From: an uncultured Bacteroidota bacterium
GTDB lineage: Bacteria > Bacteroidota > Bacteroidia > 2-12-FULL-35-15
Direction: 5' to 3'
Assembly (NCBI GenBank): GCA_903847205.1
Contig: CAINDA010000024.1
Location: 62,001 to 126,000 of the forward strand
Length of the DNA stretch: 64,000 nt
The position numbers were made by a program, and so were the translations under genes. Every line of letters starts with the position of its first letter. The first letter of the stretch is position 1. The notes under the pieces are model-generated. The model was not told where the DNA came from, did not search any database, and saw only the letters and a list, made by a program, of their open reading frames with translations. This document shows positions 5,938-64,000 of the stretch, in pieces.

Positions 5938-6414
5938 ATGTTAAAAGAATATTTCGGAACAATATTTAGCGCAATCAAATCCTTATTAACAGGGATGAAA
6001 TTGACTGGGTATTATTTTACGCATCTCAAAGAAATTGTAACTGAAGAGTATCCGGATAACCGGGCAACGCTTAAAATGGCTGATCGTTTTCGGGGTGAAG
6101 TCATAATGCCGCATGACGAAAAAAATGAGCATCGCTGTACAGGTTGTCAGTCCTGCGAACTGACCTGCCCAAATGGCTCTATAAAAATTATTTTCAAGCA
6201 GGAATTACAGCCAGACGGAAAAAAGAAAAAACGAATCGACACTTGGGTATATCATTTAGATATGTGTACCATGTGTAATTTATGTGTGGAGGCTTGCCCG
6301 TCAAATGCAATTATTATGGGTCAGGACTTTGAACACAGCGTTTATGAAAAAAAGTATTTGAAAAAGGTGTTAAATAAACCGGGCTCAAAGCTGATGGATG
6401 GTGTCGAAGAATAG
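5938..6414 (+). CDS. nuoI: NADH-quinone oxidoreductase subunit I
   Basis: NuoI carries clusters N6a and N6b that relay electrons towards NuoB. The 158 residues contain two ferredoxin motifs, CTGCQSCELTCP and CTMCNLCVEACP, separated by about 30 residues, with an amphipathic N-terminal segment typical of the subunit. In an 11-subunit complex without NuoEFG this is the usual docking surface proposed for ferredoxin. Spacers on both sides hold repeats. Confidence 0.95.
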   Translation: MLKEYFGTIFSAIKSLLTGMKLTGYYFTHLKEIVTEEYPDNRATLKMADRFRGEVIMPHDEKNEHRCTGCQSCELTCPNGSIKIIFKQELQPDGKKKKRIDTWVYHLDMCTMCNLCVEACPSNAIIMGQDFEHSVYEKKYLKKVLNKPGSKLMDGVEE

Positions 6415-6498
6415 TTTATAGTTGTTGGTTAATAGTTGATAGTTTGGAATTTAGGATTAAGAGTTTAGAATTTAGATTAACATATCAAATTTAATAGT
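6415..6498. repeat. repeat-like AT-rich spacer between nuoI and nuoJ
   Basis: The spacer consists of overlapping variants of AGTTTATAGTTG/TTAATAGTTGATAG and GAATTTAGGATTAAGAGTTTAG, and resembles the 4730-4769 spacer. I see no promoter or terminator in it. Confidence 0.4.
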
Positions 6499-13181: not shown

Positions 13182-13940
13182 TTATTCCTTAAAAACTTCA
13201 TTCAATACACTTGAAAGCATCAGGCCGCCTTTTGCCAATTGAGCAGCAACCTCGTCTTTGTTTGCATCCAGGTATTCCTTCGTTATTATATTTCCCTTGA
13301 AGCTGTAAACCGCGGGAACCAAAGCGCGCGAATCATTCATCCATGACATCACATCCATTTTGGCGATTGAGTTTTTTTGTTCTGCTGTTAATTTATCCTG
13401 CGCCTTTTGGCATACATCAAATGTGATATTTCCCTGAGCAATTATTACGCTGTCCCACAGCCAGTGCAGGCTGGTAGGGTAGGCCATAAACTTTACCTGG
13501 TAATCAAGTCCGATATGATCGTTTGGATATCCTGTATGCAGAGGCATTGCAAGATCACCGCAGAGATGAAACAAAATTTTTAAATCTTTATTTACATCTT
13601 CCTCTTTCATTTTTTTATAATTTTTCAGCTCAGTGATTACCAATTGCAATTCAGAAACAATATCGCCGTTGGGTGATTTCATGTATTCTGCGCCCTTTTC
13701 GAAACTTGTATAATGCCAGGGTTTCATATAATCATAAGCATGATTCGGCCTCATTTCATCCATCCATACAGCAGCCTGTTCAAATGTAACTGCACCCAAA
13801 TATTTTTGAACCTGCTGTTCAACTCTTTTATTTAAATTTTTACGTGCAAGTTCTGCAACCAAATGATGGCCTTCTGAACCCCAGCCGAAGAAGAGTTTGG
13901 GGAGGAGGAGGAGTGTGGGGAGGAGGAGTTTTAGTTTCAT
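13182..13940 (-). CDS. S1/P1-type zinc-dependent nuclease, secreted
   Basis: S1/P1 nucleases cleave single-stranded DNA and RNA with a three-zinc site. I choose the ATG at 13940, which gives a clear signal peptide (MKLKLLLPTLLLLPKLFFG) and a mature protein beginning at W20-G, as in the family, where the N-terminal Trp is itself a zinc ligand. Further expected ligands are visible in GSEGHHLVAELA (H25), NHAYDYMKPWHY, FHLCGDLAMPLHTGYPNDH and LHWLWDSVI. A frame extension to 14000 exists but would bury the signal peptide. The 252 residues match the family. Likely role is nutrient or phosphate scavenging from extracellular nucleic acid. It is downstream of the OLD-type gene on the same strand but probably independent. 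Confidence 0.9.
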   Translation of the reverse strand: MKLKLLLPTLLLLPKLFFGWGSEGHHLVAELARKNLNKRVEQQVQKYLGAVTFEQAAVWMDEMRPNHAYDYMKPWHYTSFEKGAEYMKSPNGDIVSELQLVITELKNYKKMKEEDVNKDLKILFHLCGDLAMPLHTGYPNDHIGLDYQVKFMAYPTSLHWLWDSVIIAQGNITFDVCQKAQDKLTAEQKNSIAKMDVMSWMNDSRALVPAVYSFKGNIITKEYLDANKDEVAAQLAKGGLMLSSVLNEVFKE

Positions 13941-14018
13941 GGTTTTATTGATTGAGTGTTTTTTGAAAATTAAAGATAGAATATCTTTAGATTCAGGCAA
14001 AAACTAAGCTTATTGGCT

Positions 14019-15866
14019 TTAATTATTCCCTTTAATGAAGGCATATATTTTTTCCGTTAATATTTTTGCTTCCTTACTAATACTATCGTAGTTATTCATA
14101 TAGCTGACAGCTTTTTTGGCAAACTCAACCTTATTTGTAATAGTTCCGCTTTTAGCTCTGTAGGCTCTTTTTAAGCCAATTACATTTTCGTCAATAAACT
14201 GACCTAAATATTCATTTTTATAGGATGGTAGTAATAATTTACTAGAGTCAATATCGTTGCCATCACTTTTCTCAAATTCATTAATTACTTTTTTTATTAT
14301 ATCCTCTTCTAATAAGTTTTCAATTTCCCTTGACTCAAGGCAATAATATTGTTCTCCTAAGTTCTTTTTCAGATTTTCTTGTCGTATTAATTTTTCTGAC
14401 TTGTCACCATTCTGTTTGTTTTCAGTAGAATCTTTGTCGCTAATTAAAAACAATTTACTGCAAAGACTTTCAATGTTAATATTTGGATGTAATGTGTCTG
14501 CATCTTCTAAGAATGACCAATGAGTTATATTGCCGCCACCATACTCTACAAACGAATAATGAATATCCTCTTTAAAAGTGACGCCTTTTAATTGTTGAAA
14601 TAATTCTAAATATTTGCGTACATAGATTCTATCAGTAATTCCTTCAACCCAAATCGTGCAATTTGATAAAAAAACGGAAGAGTTTTTTACTCCTAAAATC
14701 TGTAATATATTTTTGTCTGAATTGCTAACATTATTGATAACAAATTCTTTTTTATCGTTTTTTTGAAAGGTAAATACAGATATAGAATTATAGTCGAGCG
14801 TCATATCCAAAAAATGATTGGAATGAGTTGTTAAATAAAATTGGAAATTGCTAAATTGAGGCAATGATAAAGTTTCTAAAAATACTCTTTGAAAGCCTGG
14901 ATGTAAAAACAAATCAGGTTCTTCATAAAAAACATTTAAATGTTTTTCTTGATTGAAGAATAAGGGATATGTTAAAATAATTATTGATTGAATGCCATCA
15001 CCTATTTTATATATTGGATATTCATCATCATCCCCAATTTTAATATGCACTACATTGTCTTCTATATGCGGAATAATACTAAATTCTTTACCATCAAAAA
15101 AAGTATCTCCAATAAATTTTTCAAAACCTTTAACCCTTTCTCTCCCAGGTTTGGAGCCAAGTAGAAGTGTTTTTACATCATCATATAGTTTTAATCCGGT
15201 AAAAATTTGACTTTCGATGTGATCTTCTTTTTGAAAATAATCATTTTTTGTTCTGATTAGATAATTATCCTTCCATTTCAATTGCTTTTTTTCATCATAA
15301 TCAATCCCACGTAACCCTCTTAACGTTGGTATATAAATATTTTCACGTAAATAATTTTTATGGTTATAAGATTTCAGGCTTTCTATATTTTTTAGGCAGT
15401 CAGAGGCAAAAGTTCTAATTTCATTTGCTATTTGACTTACGCCCCCAATTCCTGTTCCTACCGATCCATCAGTATAAGTTATTCTAGTAAAATTAATTTG
15501 CGTTAAGCCTTCTACGTATGTATATAAGTCAGTAAATTTATTTGAATCGGAAAGAAATTTATTTTCTTTCAGGATGCTTAATTCAACTCCCTCAGCAGAA
15601 CGTATTCGCATATTTTTGAAGTAATCTTCAATTTGAGTGTGAAGATGACTTATAGCTGAATTAATTTCATTCAAATTAATATTTTCAACTGTGAACTCAG
15701 GCTTTTTATTTGAAAACAGATTTCTTAATAAACTACTTTTTCCTGAATTATTTGGTCCAATAAAAATATTAATCTTTGAAAGATTTGCTAATTCTTTTGA
15801 TGGTTCTGTAATATAATTATTTAGACCTTCTGAATTTAAATGAATTGATTTATACATACTTTTCAA
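14019..15866 (-). CDS. OLD-family ATPase with TOPRIM nuclease domain, stand-alone
   Basis: The 615-residue protein starts with an ABC-type ATPase domain: Walker A GPNNSGKSS at residues 37-45, and a signature/Walker B region NVFYEEPDLFLHPGFQ near 312-327, followed by LTTHSNHFLDM. The C-terminal part is a TOPRIM nuclease, with VEGITDRIYVRKYLELF (acidic residue near 408), LISDKDS (D-x-D near 477) and CLESREIENLLEED. This is the layout of OLD-family endonucleases, several of which are anti-phage effectors. No UvrD/GajB helicase, AriB-like or reverse transcriptase partner is next to it, so it would be a solitary (class 1-like) member. It is visibly more AT-rich than neighbours and carries many Lys/Asn codons, suggesting horizontal gain. 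A second start at 15857 is possible. Confidence 0.85.
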   Translation of the reverse strand: MKSMYKSIHLNSEGLNNYITEPSKELANLSKINIFIGPNNSGKSSLLRNLFSNKKPEFTVENINLNEINSAISHLHTQIEDYFKNMRIRSAEGVELSILKENKFLSDSNKFTDLYTYVEGLTQINFTRITYTDGSVGTGIGGVSQIANEIRTFASDCLKNIESLKSYNHKNYLRENIYIPTLRGLRGIDYDEKKQLKWKDNYLIRTKNDYFQKEDHIESQIFTGLKLYDDVKTLLLGSKPGRERVKGFEKFIGDTFFDGKEFSIIPHIEDNVVHIKIGDDDEYPIYKIGDGIQSIIILTYPLFFNQEKHLNVFYEEPDLFLHPGFQRVFLETLSLPQFSNFQFYLTTHSNHFLDMTLDYNSISVFTFQKNDKKEFVINNVSNSDKNILQILGVKNSSVFLSNCTIWVEGITDRIYVRKYLELFQQLKGVTFKEDIHYSFVEYGGGNITHWSFLEDADTLHPNINIESLCSKLFLISDKDSTENKQNGDKSEKLIRQENLKKNLGEQYYCLESREIENLLEEDIIKKVINEFEKSDGNDIDSSKLLLPSYKNEYLGQFIDENVIGLKRAYRAKSGTITNKVEFAKKAVSYMNNYDSISKEAKILTEKIYAFIKGNN

Positions 15867-15974
15867 TTAATTAATGGAGCTTATGGAATCTGTCTGTCGG
15901 AATTTCTCAAGGAATTATTTTATTGAATTGCCGTTAATTTTTTTATCAAATGTAAATCATTTAAAACTATCCCA

Positions 15975-16009
15975 ACAAAAAAAGCCCCTCTGAATTAACA
16001 GAGAGGCTT
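15975..16009 (-). terminator. intrinsic terminator of the 122-aa gene
   Basis: Read on the minus strand, a hairpin AAGCCTCTCTG-(TTAATT)-CAGAGGGGCTT with one mismatch is followed by a run of seven T. It lies about 20 nt after the stop at 16030 and so ends the transcript of the 122-aa gene before the OLD-type gene begins. Confidence 0.8.
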
Positions 16010-16029
16010 AACCCTTGAACCCGCATAAA

Positions 16030-16398
16030 TTAAGGAGCCGGTTTAGTAATTACTTTGGGTTTGCTTTTTGGTTTCTTGCGATTGCTTGAACGAATGCCTC
16101 CGGCTTTTTCGTATTCAATGCTGTCGTGACCATAAGCGGAACCAACTGCTTCAAGTATCCTCTTGCTCATATCATTCAATTCTTTTTCCATCTGCTTAAG
16201 CTCTGTGGATCCCGTATCAGCCATTGAAAGCTGCTGATTATAAGCGTCTAATTTGCTTGTAACAGCGCTTACTTTAGCGTTATACGAAGTAACAGTAAGT
16301 CCGTTTCCCAAATCAAGTGTCATAGAAATAGTTTCAACCCCTGCTAATCTCTTGCTCGCTTTTTCTAACACTAATGATTTTCTTTTTAGTCTTGCCAT
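16030..16398 (-). CDS. unknown 122-aa helical protein, downstream of a 21-nt repeat array
   Basis: The protein has a basic N-terminus (MARLKRKSLVLEKASKRLAG), a predicted helical middle (about 35-90) and a striking C-terminal block AYGHDSIEYEKAGGIRSSNR followed by a Lys/Pro-rich tail. There is no signal peptide or membrane segment. A good ribosome site (AAAGGGGGTG on the minus strand) precedes the ATG, and an intrinsic terminator follows the stop, so it is a monocistronic gene. An 18-unit array of 21-nt repeats lies 177 nt upstream. I know small proteins with a similar YGxDSxEYExxGGxRxS block in various bacteria but no function for them. Coding is well supported; the role is unknown. Confidence 0.8.
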   Translation of the reverse strand: MARLKRKSLVLEKASKRLAGVETISMTLDLGNGLTVTSYNAKVSAVTSKLDAYNQQLSMADTGSTELKQMEKELNDMSKRILEAVGSAYGHDSIEYEKAGGIRSSNRKKPKSKPKVITKPAP

Positions 16399-16574
16399 TT
16401 GTAAACACCCCCTTTCGGAAACTATATCAATCTATACTTTTAAGCGATGCAGCATGCATCAGCATGGTATTGGAATGATTAATACAGATAAGCCAAACGA
16501 TATGCCATAAGATGGTTTTTAACATTACTTGTGAATTAGATGAACTTTAATAATCTATGCCTGAGTTTAGTTTT

Positions 16575-16952
16575 CTGCTGTTAAAACTCACTGATGGGTT
16601 AACGCAAGTGAGTTGCGGGTTGACTCAAGTGAGTTGCGTCTTGATGCAACTCATTGACGGGTTAATGAAAGTGAGTTGAGGGTTGATGCAACTCATTGAT
16701 GGGTTAGTGAAAGTGAGTTGCGGGTTGATGCAACTCATTGACGGGTTAATGCATGTGACTTGAGTGTTGATGCAACTCACTGATGGGTTAATACAACTGA
16801 GCAGCGGGTTGATATAACTCACTGATGGGTTAATGCAACTGAGCTGCATGTTGATATAACTCAATAATGGGTTAATGAAGATGAGTTGAGGGCAGCTAAA
16901 ACTAAATATTGGGTTAATGCAATATAGTTTTGGGTTGATAAAACTAAATTCG
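16575..16952. repeat. 18-unit tandem array of 21-nt repeats with paired hairpins
   Basis: Eighteen uninterrupted units of exactly 21 nt can be laid out from 16575; seventeen of them begin at 16596 + 21n. Most begin GGGTTAATG or GGGTTGATG. Two unit types alternate through much of the array: one continuing AAAGTGAGTTGC and one continuing CAACTCATTGAT. They are partly complementary, so neighbouring units fold as GAGTTGC-GGGTTGAT-GCAACTC hairpins repeated every 42 nt. Units at the right end (from ~16890) are more diverged. The minus strand has an open heptapeptide frame (I-N-P-x-x-S-x) but without a convincing start or ribosome site, so I treat the array as non-coding. It lies between the gene at 16030 and the terminator at 16990. 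Confidence 0.9.
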
Positions 16953-16989
16953 ATCATTTATAAACTCTCCGCCAGCAACTGCTATGAAC

Positions 16990-17024
16990 AAAAAAAACAG
17001 CATAGATTTCGCATCCATGCTGTT
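16990..17024 (-). terminator. intrinsic terminator of the metalloprotease gene
   Basis: On the minus strand, AACAGCATGGAT-(GCGAA)-ATCTATGCTGTT forms a stem of about 12 bp with one mismatch, followed by eight T. It is about 57 nt after the stop codon of the gene at 17081 and separates it from the repeat array. Confidence 0.8.
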
Positions 17025-17080
17025 CAATAAAAATTTAAATTTCAGGTATTTTCTCCTTCGAATTTAAATACCCTGATCCA

Positions 17081-20000
17081 TTAATAAATTACAACCTTTT
17101 TAACAATCTCAGTGTCGGCGCTTCTTAAGTTAAGCAGGTAAACACCTTTTGCAAAACCTTCTAAATTCAGCTGTTTTAAATATTTTCCTTCAAAATCAGA
17201 AAGTGTTTCTTCGTAAATCAAAGCACCAATTGCATTCACCATTTTTAATGAATACGTATTTCTTTCAGGTACTTCAAACGAAACAAAAAAGTTACCATCG
17301 TTCGGATTCGGATAAACATTAAAAAAGCAGTCGCTGTTTAATTGATTAATTCCTTCGGGTACAGCATTTATTGTGTTTGAAGGGCAGCCGCTGCCATTAA
17401 CAATAACAACATAATTTCCTGCCTGTAAAACTGTGAAGGTTTGGTTTACAGCTCCCGCAGCTACCTGGCCGTTTCTATACCATTGATAAGCAGTTGCAGC
17501 AGATGATGTAAGCACGCCTCCGCTTTGAGTAATTACCGGCGTAGGATTTACTGTAATAGTGTAAACAGAGGGTGTGCCCGGACAGCCGCTTATTGAAGGA
17601 GTAACGCTGATATTTGAAGTAATCGGCGCAGCAGTATTATTTACAGCGCTGAATGAAGTCACATTTCCGTTACCTCCGCTTCCTAAGCCTATAGCGGTAT
17701 TCGAGTTGGTCCAGGAATAAGCAGCACCCAAAGGATTACTCGAAAAATTTGTTGCAGCAATGTTTCCGCCGCATACATCAATATCAGAAATAAAATTAAT
17801 TGTCGCTACCGCAGGCACAACCACTGTGATCGGGCTGCTTGAAACGATTGATGTGCATACAGAAGTTGAAGTTACCGAACATGTTATAACAGATCCGTCG
17901 GCTATTGAAGAAGGTGTATAAGTAAGGCTCTGGGCCCCTGCAATCGGGCTGCCATTCAAAAACCATTGATAAGATGGACTTACAGCATTCGACGGCGTTG
18001 CAGTAAATGAAATAGGATTCCCAGTACAGCTCGGATTAGCTCCTGCCGTAATTGCTGCTGTAATAGTAGGTACAGATGATGAGAGTATGGAGATGGTTGT
18101 TGCTGCACTTGCTGCAGTGTTTACACTTAAACAGGATGCATTAGAAGTAACAACGCATGTTATCACATCACCGTTTGCAGGCGATGCAGGCGTGTAGGAT
18201 GTTCCAATAACTGTATTGACCCCATTCTTTTTCCATTGATATACAGGCGTTGTTCCTCCGCTGGTTGACGAAGCTGTAAAGGTAAGCGGAACACCGGGAC
18301 AGGTAGGGTTTGCACCTGTTGTAATGGCAATTGTACATGCAGGGCTTACAATGGAGTTGACAGTCATGGCAGTAATGCTGCTTGTTACCGAAACCGGGGT
18401 TGCGCAGGCGGCATTGGAAGTTATAATACAGGTAATTAAATCGGCATTTGCAAGTGTTGATGAAGTGTAAGTGGTGCTGTTTGTGCCTACATTGGCGCCG
18501 TTTAGCTGCCATTGATAAGCAGGTGAATTACCGCCGTTTGCCGGTGCCGCTGTAAAGGTTACTGAGCCGCCGGCACATATAGTTGATGCACCCGAAGTAA
18601 TTGAAACAGTAACTGCAGGAAGCACACGCGGTGTTATGGTCATTGTAATGCCGGTGCTTAAAGCTGTTGTGGGGCTTGGGCAGAGGGCAGTAGAGGTAAT
18701 GCCGCAGGTTATCACATCATTATTTGCCAGCAATGATGATGTATAAGTGGGATACGTTCCGCCTACAATGGCAGTGCCGTTTAAATACCACTGGTAAACT
18801 GGGCTTGCACCGCCGTTAACAGGTGTTGCGGTAAATGTAACGGGTATGCCGTCGCATACAGTTTGCGAACCTGAAGTAATGGCAATTGTAACCGAAGGTG
18901 TAACAGTACCCACAGTAATATAATTTGTTTTTATTATTGTATTGCTTCCGTTGGCGTTTGTTGCAACAAGTTTTACTGTATAGGTGCCCAGGCTGGTATA
19001 AGTATGCGTAGGCGATTGGGTAGTGTAATCAACCACTCCGTCATTATTAACATCCCATGCCCAGGATGTGATAGCTCCTAAAGTATGGTCGGTAAAAGTA
19101 ACTGTTAAAGGTGCAGTGCAGGCATTTAAAGGGGTGCCGTCGAATGCGGCAACAGGAGCGCTTGCACAGGCTGTTAAACAGGATGCTGCTGCATACGACG
19201 CTCTGATGGCACCGCCGGGCTGAGTTCCAAAGCCATTTGTGATTAAGATGCCTACACTTGTTAAATGGCAGTAACTCATAATAGTACCGCCGAGTGTTGC
19301 CGGGTGAGGCCCCGGTGAACAAGAGCCTTCAACTGCATAGCAGTCATCAATTGCGCCGCCTACCCAGCCGCACCAATGTGTATGGTGCGATCCGAAATTA
19401 TGGCCCAGCTCATGTGTAACCACCAATGTGGTCCAGCAGGTATTAGGGTATGCTGCAAATGTATTGTCGATATTACTGATAGCATAAGCATTGCTCGGCG
19501 TGCAAATTACATCGAGGTAGGCTAATCCTCCGGCATTAAGAGGCCGGGTGGTAAGCAGATGCGCCACATTGCCGTTGAAAGTTGTCCGGGTTGCCTGAAA
19601 GCCGTTAAGCAAATCCGTTGATGTTGTTGCCGAGATATAAGGGTCAGCGGTAGTCCATACATAAATCTGTGATAACTCCACGTTAAGCGTTTCAACATTA
19701 TAAAGTGTCTGCACAACATTAAATAATCCGGTAACATAATTGGTTGTATTTACAACGCCTCCCTGATCAATAAACATTTGATTATCGCATTCAAAATAAA
19801 CTTTAATACATTGATTGCTCTGCAGATGCCCTCCGCCATTGCCGTTACTGCTTCGTAACTGGTTCGGCAGCGCATCCACACCGCATTTAAACTCGCGTTT
19901 AAAAAGTACATCGCTGTCTCTGTATAAAATGTAAATAGTTTTGTTAATGTTGGATGCATCGTTCCATAACCCCAATGTATAATTATCATTGTTATATGAA

Positions 20001-62545: not shown

Positions 62546-63025
62546 CTATTCATCCACCCAGCGTATTTCAATAAGTTTATAATGGATGCCTAATACTACG
62601 GCGCGGATAATGCTTTTGCAGCGTAATTTTTTTTTAATGCTTTCGCGCTGGGCGTTAATGGTGTTTATGCTCAGGGGATTATTTTTTGGCTTAGTCCTTA
62701 TTTTTGTAATGTCGCGGCCATCGTATCCATCGGCATATAATTGCAGTACTTGTTTTTCGCAGCCGGTTAATTTAATATTATACAGCTGTTTTAAGATGCA
62801 GATATCAATAAGCGAATAATGAATACAGATTACCACAGCACGGGTGATGGTATGGCATCCCGATTTTTCTAAGAGCAAACCGCCTTGTTTGTTGTATTGG
62901 CTTTTTGAAAGGTGGCCGCGTATAGCGGAGGCACTTTCGCCATTGGCATATCGCTGTAATTTTTTTAAATCGCCGCTGCTGTAATTATTTTGCAGTGTAA
63001 TTTTATTTTTCATGGCTGCAGACAT
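62546..63025 (-). CDS. tandem LuxR-like HTH protein
   Basis: The 159-residue protein is an internal duplication: LQRYANGES...CHTITRAVVICIHYSLIDI in the first half (about 20-78) matches LQLYADGYD...CKSIIRAVVLGIHYKLIEI in the second half (about 90-155). The second half includes the HTH core PLSINTINAQRESIKKKL. ATG 63013 is an alternative start. There is no sensor domain. Its start lies 185 nt from a 21-nt repeat array and it is divergent from the gene at 63550. It could regulate that gene through the array; this is inference. Confidence 0.75.
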   Translation of the reverse strand: MSAAMKNKITLQNNYSSGDLKKLQRYANGESASAIRGHLSKSQYNKQGGLLLEKSGCHTITRAVVICIHYSLIDICILKQLYNIKLTGCEKQVLQLYADGYDGRDITKIRTKPKNNPLSINTINAQRESIKKKLRCKSIIRAVVLGIHYKLIEIRWVDE

Positions 63026-63209: not shown

Positions 63210-63482
63210 AATAAAATAAACGAAAGCCTTGTTAAAATAATTGAAAGGACTTTTAAAACATTTGAAAGGACTGTTACAATAAACGAACGGACTATTAAGG
63301 AAATTGAAAGGACTGTTAAACTAATTGAATTGACTAGTAAAATAATAGAAAGCACTGTTAAGGCAATTGAAAGGACTCATAAAATAATAGAAAGGACTAT
63401 TAATGCAATTGAACGGACTGTTACAATAAACGATAAGACTAATAAAATATTAGAAAGGACTATTAAGGCAGCAGCAAGCCGG
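63210..63482. repeat. 13-unit tandem array of 21-nt repeats, AT-rich, phased A-tracts
   Basis: Units of exactly 21 nt follow from 63210: the consensus is GTTAAAATAATTG / AAAGGACT, with the last unit (63462) degenerate. Two A-runs per unit (AAAA and AAA, about 10 nt apart) recur in step with the DNA helix, so the array should be bent. In frame 3 it reads V-K-I-I-E-R-T heptads for 90 residues, but the only start codons are poor (TTG at 63330), so I treat it as non-coding. It fills most of the 524-nt gap between the HTH gene and the unknown gene at 63550; 63026-63209 shows nothing else. Confidence 0.88.
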
Positions 63483-63549: not shown

Positions 63550-64000
63550 ATGGCAGACAAATCACGAATTTCATTAAGCCCTAAAGTATTTGATCCTTAC
63601 ATCAAATCAACTGATAAGCATTTGCAGGATATTGAGCCTGTAAGCAATCTTCCCTATTGGCAATGGTTAGGATTAACCAGCGTTAATGCCGGCGACTGGC
63701 ATAATAAACGGCAGTTTTGGGATACATCCAATACGGGACTGTTTGCATTATACAGCAATCCTGCAACATGCACCAGCATTGTAAAACAGAATGTTAAAAA
63801 ATTTATTGCAGATTTTAAAACTTTTGCCAACCCGCTTTTAGATATTATTTCGGCAAATCCGAATGCGGGTACAGAGGAAGAAAAAATATTTAATTTGATA
63901 CTGAAAAAAAACCGTAAAAAACCAAGTAAAACCCACACGCCTATTGCTGAGCAGTGTAATAGCACTTTTAAAAGCTCCAACGGCGGCGATATGAAAGCTG
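63550..64000 (+). CDS. unknown protein, 5' part only, downstream of a 21-nt repeat array
   Basis: The frame from ATG 63550 is open to the right edge (150 codons seen). The protein begins MADKSRISLSPKVFDPYIKS and continues with NLPYWQWLGLTSVNAGDWHN, LFALYSNPATCTSIVKQNVK and NPLLDIISANPNAG. There is no signal peptide or membrane segment. The first 110 residues are rich in aromatic and polar residues and likely globular and helical. I do not recognise a characterised family. An A-rich leader precedes the ATG, with the 21-nt array ending 67 nt upstream. Confidence 0.75.
   Translation, partial: MADKSRISLSPKVFDPYIKSTDKHLQDIEPVSNLPYWQWLGLTSVNAGDWHNKRQFWDTSNTGLFALYSNPATCTSIVKQNVKKFIADFKTFANPLLDIISANPNAGTEEEKIFNLILKKNRKKPSKTHTPIAEQCNSTFKSSNGGDMKA

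Follow-up and report, generated by a model that had tools for sequence, protein, structure and literature searches.

Intergenic repeat arrays with a two-helical-turn period beside small orphan genes in an uncultured Bacteroidota bacterium

Background

The plasmid centromere of the ParR-parC system of pSK41 is composed of 20-bp repeats, and bacterial operators with multiple sites are known in which binding is cooperative and helically phased. The arrays described here are present twice in a 64,000-nt stretch of DNA from an uncultured Bacteroidota bacterium, referred to as the window, and at many other loci. They resemble plasmid iterons and centromeres in that sites spanning about two helical turns each (20–22 bp) follow one another in tandem with, at some loci, the gene of a DNA-binding protein alongside. 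They differ from these in being chromosomal, in occurring dozens of times per genome and in having their own sequence at each locus; their neighbours are GerE, HTH_3, LytTR, HxlR or orphan genes, not Rep or ParR. With multi-site operators they share a palindromic core, helical phasing and, at some loci, a regulator gene close by. Unlike such operators, they have 9–25 sites per row and a single geometry combined with varied cores and regulator families, and in one of the associated gene families, family 3, they are often downstream of the gene.

BrickBuilt, a minisatellite-MITE of Porphyromonas gingivalis, has one 23-nt sequence, a leader, a tail and inverted-repeat ends (PMC4596501). Like BrickBuilt, the arrays lie between genes, repeat a unit of about 20 nt in tandem and are found in Bacteroidota in many copies per genome, but their sequence is different at each locus. 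Judged on shared sequence, there is little in common between loci, and the common sequence of a MITE is therefore lacking. Literature searches, whose coverage excludes most subscription journals, turned up no account of arrays of this kind, and the 21-nt array class is apparently undescribed.

The two arrays of the window

The first array (16575–16952, no strand assigned) contains 18 units of 21 nt, in which the inverted half-sites GCAACTCA and TGAGTTGC alternate to form 42-nt dimers. The first half-site is found at 16646, 16688, 16730 and 16772, and the second, or near variants of it, at 16630, 16672, 16714 and 16756, in both cases 42 nt apart. Lag matching is 0.70 at 42 nt, 0.67 at 84, 0.57 at 63 and 0.54 at 21, which makes the 42-nt dimer of two alternating 21-mers the working unit. 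TRF reports 42 nt x 6.3 with a score of 308. At lag 42 there are 207 matches in 252 nt, compared to 106 for the best of 300 dinucleotide-preserving shuffles, taken as the best match at any lag between 10 and 129. An exact 21-nt period over 18 units, with no indel, had been claimed in an earlier note on this DNA and is borne out by the unit listing and the shuffle test. The units degenerate towards 16890–16952 and also at 16575. By DNA similarity, this array is a single copy in its genome. Its 21-nt unit has no spacer of CRISPR size, and PADLOC found no Cas genes among the eight window proteins tested.

The family 1 gene (16030–16398, reverse strand) encodes a protein of 122 aa belonging to no Pfam family, and its ATG is approximately 177 nt from the array. 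When read by eye, the leader between the two (16399–16574, same strand) contains a short inverted repeat (ATGCAgcaTGCAT), which recurs with altered sequence in the second family 1 copy of this genome (L004), and a ribosome-binding-like stretch, AGGGGGTG. The array was said to lie just upstream of a conserved small gene. Its position is as described, but the gene is conserved only in a limited sense: the second copy and one in 98 relatives were the only ones found, with none in named genomes. All three family 1 genes have an array in the same position, and its period is in each case 21 nt or a multiple of it. Structure prediction from 3 sequences (pLDDT 78, pTM 0.39) gave a long helical hairpin and a low-confidence tail rich in basic residues; a fold search returned nothing useful. 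The array has no HTH neighbour; the gene beyond it encodes a T9SS-type metalloprotease. It is possible that the array is bound by the family 1 protein, as a basic coiled coil, or by a trans-acting factor. Further along the reverse strand are a gene for an OLD-like AAA ATPase with a TOPRIM domain (14019–15866), which is possibly a defence gene, the nearest defence models being AriA, Old and GajA, and an S1/P1-type nuclease gene (13182–14000; Pfam E 3e-41).

The second array (63212–63466, no strand assigned) has periods of 21, 42 and 63 nt and is unrelated in sequence to the first. It is upstream of a family 2 gene on the forward strand that starts at 63550 and runs past the window end at 64000; the complete gene, in L005, encodes 273 aa. 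Divergent from this, on the far side of the array, is a gene for a LuxR/GerE DNA-binding domain (62546–63025, reverse strand; GerE match E 4e-5, just above the curated cutoff). Family 2 has 23 matches in this genome and 11 others, and 22 of the 23 have an upstream array, a few of these being weak and the unit sequences differing between them. The protein is predicted to have a helical N-terminus and an fn3-like C-terminus (pLDDT 90, pTM 0.51), and a fold search found fn3 domains (best E 2e-3).

Distribution of the arrays

An autocorrelation scan of 1.47 Mb, approximately 27% of this genome, found 37 candidate arrays with periods around 20–21, 41–42 or 62–63 nt. A few are inside coding sequence; most arrays are intergenic. 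Besides the two in the window, these 1.47 Mb contain about 30 more. TRF identified 42 non-coding arrays in the same genome. In 26 of them the period is a multiple of 21 nt, and in another five of them it is 20, 41, 41, 60 and 62 nt. The unit sequence varies from locus to locus and differs from that of the first window array, while the period is retained. The many other arrays in this genome and its relatives agree with the earlier note, for which their absence would have counted against the proposal.

Other genomes with the gene families also contain arrays, with 9 in 200 kb of G015 and 6 in 200 kb of G004. Two control genomes chosen as lacking families 2 and 3 (G009 and G010) have none in 400 kb, and fourteen further controls, several sampled only as short stretches, have none in 313 kb. 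A laxer threshold gave one 22-nt match across all sixteen (713 kb). The controls were classed as lacking the families through single-sequence searches, and a sensitive profile later gave one family-3-like match in G016. The array class is real and large, its hosts are for the most part uncultured Bacteroidota, and its link to small orphan genes is strong. Some arrays do adjoin unrelated genes or are located between convergent genes.

Several contigs begin or end in or near arrays (L028 1–304, L103 14977–15310 and L063 34–477); arrays therefore probably break short-read assemblies and are undercounted. In L018 (1857–2428) and L033 (3123–3377), lags of 41, 62 and 83 nt are present beside 21, corresponding to 1-nt deletions inside the array, so the exact phase is not absolute.

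Coding potential

The open reading frame at 16957–16625 (110 aa) has an ATG and seven-residue repeats, and the first array could on this account encode a heptad-repeat protein. This is highly improbable. Variation in 71 arrays has no codon-position pattern, the p values being uniform, and the 1.71 open frames observed are near the 1.53 expected under a Markov null; an excess first suggested by a column-permutation null (0.93 vs 1.71) was removed by it. All six frames are closed in 21 of 85 arrays, and periods of 20, 22, 41 and 62 nt break the reading frame. By eye, the open frame of the second window array is preceded by a stop and has no usual start codon before the repeats. The earlier proposal that the array is non-coding and spaced at two helical turns is supported, and is strengthened by the other loci, where unrelated sequences keep a 20–22-nt spacing, and by the exact spacing across random spacers in L110, described below.

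Structure of the repeat unit

Conserved columns cluster inside the unit (75 arrays, Fisher 5e-14). Short dyads are enriched as well (65 arrays, matrix test, mean z 1.49, Fisher 7e-21), the arrays being partly related so that both combined Fisher values overstate independence. The matrix test was relied upon; an earlier version using consensus letters was weak (mean z 0.89). Individually, dyads have p below 0.05 in 35% of the arrays, and two thirds of the 21-nt arrays are without a dyad that is significant on its own. Hairpins every 42 nt, as proposed in the earlier note, fit the first window array, in which the 42-nt dyad is significant (p 0.017), but are not a general trait, since, among the 19 dimer arrays tested, just 2 have a significant dyad at this level. 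More commonly, the 21-nt unit itself contains a core that is palindromic or inverted. Such a core reads more naturally as a double-stranded DNA site for dimeric proteins than as an RNA hairpin.

Many units consist of a palindromic core and a variable spacer. This is seen most clearly in L110, located upstream of a family 2 gene in this genome, where GCTGCGCAGC recurs at an exact 21-nt spacing with one interval of 42. Core identity is 0.96 and spacer identity 0.27, the same as the 0.27 expected by chance. In L220, with the core TTGTACAA, the values are 0.85 for the core and 0.40 for the spacer, vs 0.28 by chance. When the spacers are not conserved, an exact spacing does not easily arise by duplication of units; it points to selection on the spacing. 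Phased A-tract curvature was considered and rejected, there being no 10.5-bp signal in the A+T content or in AA/TT/AT of the consensus units.

In the best-supported explanation, which has about even odds, the array at 16575–16952 belongs to a genome-wide class and consists of protein-binding sites in a helically phased row beside a small orphan gene. Every unit would contain a short core, in many cases a palindrome or one of two inverted half-sites, and recurrence of this core every two turns of B-DNA would place all sites on one face of the helix. A dimeric DNA-binding protein could then bind the row cooperatively, and the bound row may control the adjacent small gene. Several observations argue against this. 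No regulator gene adjoins the array itself, and its conserved columns do not cluster (p 0.98). Elsewhere, there are the arrays beside unrelated or convergent genes, the arrays without an individually significant dyad, and the turnover of repeats.

The inverted repeats in many arrays are also compatible with a function in RNA, where a transcribed row of hairpins would act on the transcript by termination, stabilisation or binding, or be a source of small RNAs. Nine of 13 arrays downstream of genes begin without a clear terminator ahead of them, as such a function would allow. It is nevertheless quite improbable, because nothing in RNA needs an exact two-turn spacing with random spacers, the other 4 downstream arrays are preceded by a clear terminator, and an Rfam search of 15800–17200 found no match to a known RNA family. 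The suggestion that arrays are always outside the transcription unit was dropped, given the small number of these terminators.

Regulator genes beside the arrays

A DNA-binding regulator is encoded across the array from the family 2 gene at 11 of about 22 loci (E<1e-3), in a count for which proteins were chosen by eye for scanning and the remainder scored as negative. The regulators, among them the one at 62546–63025 in the window, are from various families (GerE, HTH_3, HTH_26, LytTR and HxlR). Of 10 genes that flank family 2 genes on the other side, none encodes a regulator. Some arrays (L100, L110 and L111) are without a regulator neighbour. Family 3 relatives add three further ones (HTH_3 twice and HTH_17); the HTH_17 protein is that of the Sphingobacterium locus L220, and an HTH_3 protein is encoded beside the array of L033. 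If the arrays are rows of protein-binding sites, the HTH or LytTR regulators encoded beyond them at about half of the family 2 loci would explain why the core is private to each locus and the spacing is common to all.

The sites might instead serve in partition, nucleoid organisation or recombination, without being operators of the neighbouring gene. Phased repeats of the 20-bp class resemble plasmid centromeres and iterons, and arrays are scattered over the chromosome, some of them between convergent genes. The probability of this is small: Pfam identified no Rep, ParR or ParA among the array neighbours, the family 3 protein has no plasmid match, and the sequence varies between sites, unlike parS.

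Family 3 and taxonomic spread

Family 3 consists of small helical proteins with a fibronectin-III-like C-terminus. Arrays adjoin these genes at about 21 of 30 loci, mostly downstream, which is an odd position for an operator. In named genomes, a profile search found family 3 relatives at 23 loci, 18 of them with an upstream array; the period is mostly 21 nt, with 22, 44 and 20 in three. These relatives include the isolate Sphingobacterium pedocola Ka21 (L220) and MAGs labelled as a planctomycete (Schlesneria), Acidobacteria and Methylococcales, of which the Methylococcales array is weak and the labels or binning may be wrong. Of the 295 genomes of the class that were sampled, 52 match the family 3 profile. 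There are 20 copies of family 3 in bacterium A37T11, and the single locus examined there has no array. A mobile or phage origin was rejected, as families 1 and 3 have no match in viral contigs and the family 3 query none in plasmids or phages. Upstream of the family 3 paralogues in L118 (2178–2423) and L129 (2200–2420) there are 53- and 54-nt repeats, about five helical turns, and each of these paralogues has a 21-nt array downstream.

Evolution of the arrays

Between two species, orthologous arrays are set apart by a single indel of exactly 42 nt in addition to substitutions; in another orthologous pair, homogenisation of the units has taken place within each species. Where paralogous genes are 85% identical, an AGTACT-type palindrome is all that their arrays have in common. 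L040 (15385–15817) and L089 (6834–7699), on different contigs of this genome, have nearly the same 42-nt unit, which indicates that units can spread or duplicate between loci. The arrays therefore undergo ordinary repeat turnover, with the period apparently under constraint.

The indel, the homogenisation, the divergence of arrays beside similar paralogues and the presence of some near unrelated genes would all be expected of neutral or selfish minisatellites that expand and contract through slippage or unequal recombination. In that case the mutation mechanism would set the two-turn period, and the link to genes would reflect weakly constrained neighbourhoods or shared descent. This explanation is unlikely. 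It does not account for random spacers at an exact 21-nt spacing in L110, and in part in L220, or for the clustered conservation and enriched dyads, and the arrays are tied to specific gene families across phyla and nearly absent from the control genomes.

Returning to the binding-site interpretation, the arrays could tentatively be seen as a dedicated genome-wide regulatory or nucleoprotein system with no described counterpart, although the balance is somewhat against so broad a claim. It would comprise dozens of chromosomal arrays with a constant two-turn geometry and a locus-private sequence, each tied to the gene of a small protein, helical or helical-plus-fn3, and in many cases to a private regulator as well, across Bacteroidota and occasionally in other phyla. 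If the binding-site interpretation is right, the arrays would be a common non-coding element of Bacteroidota in which evolution preserves DNA geometry over sequence. Regulators could be paired with their sites, each array displaying its core 10–20 times, and several large orphan protein families would become easier to approach. The interpretation is testable in the cultured isolate Sphingobacterium pedocola.

Intergenic repeats of another class, whose period is 7 nt, are found in the window at 6411–6480 as well as in L202 (12459–12692) and L168 (8509–8658), and occur in genomes both with and without 21-nt arrays.
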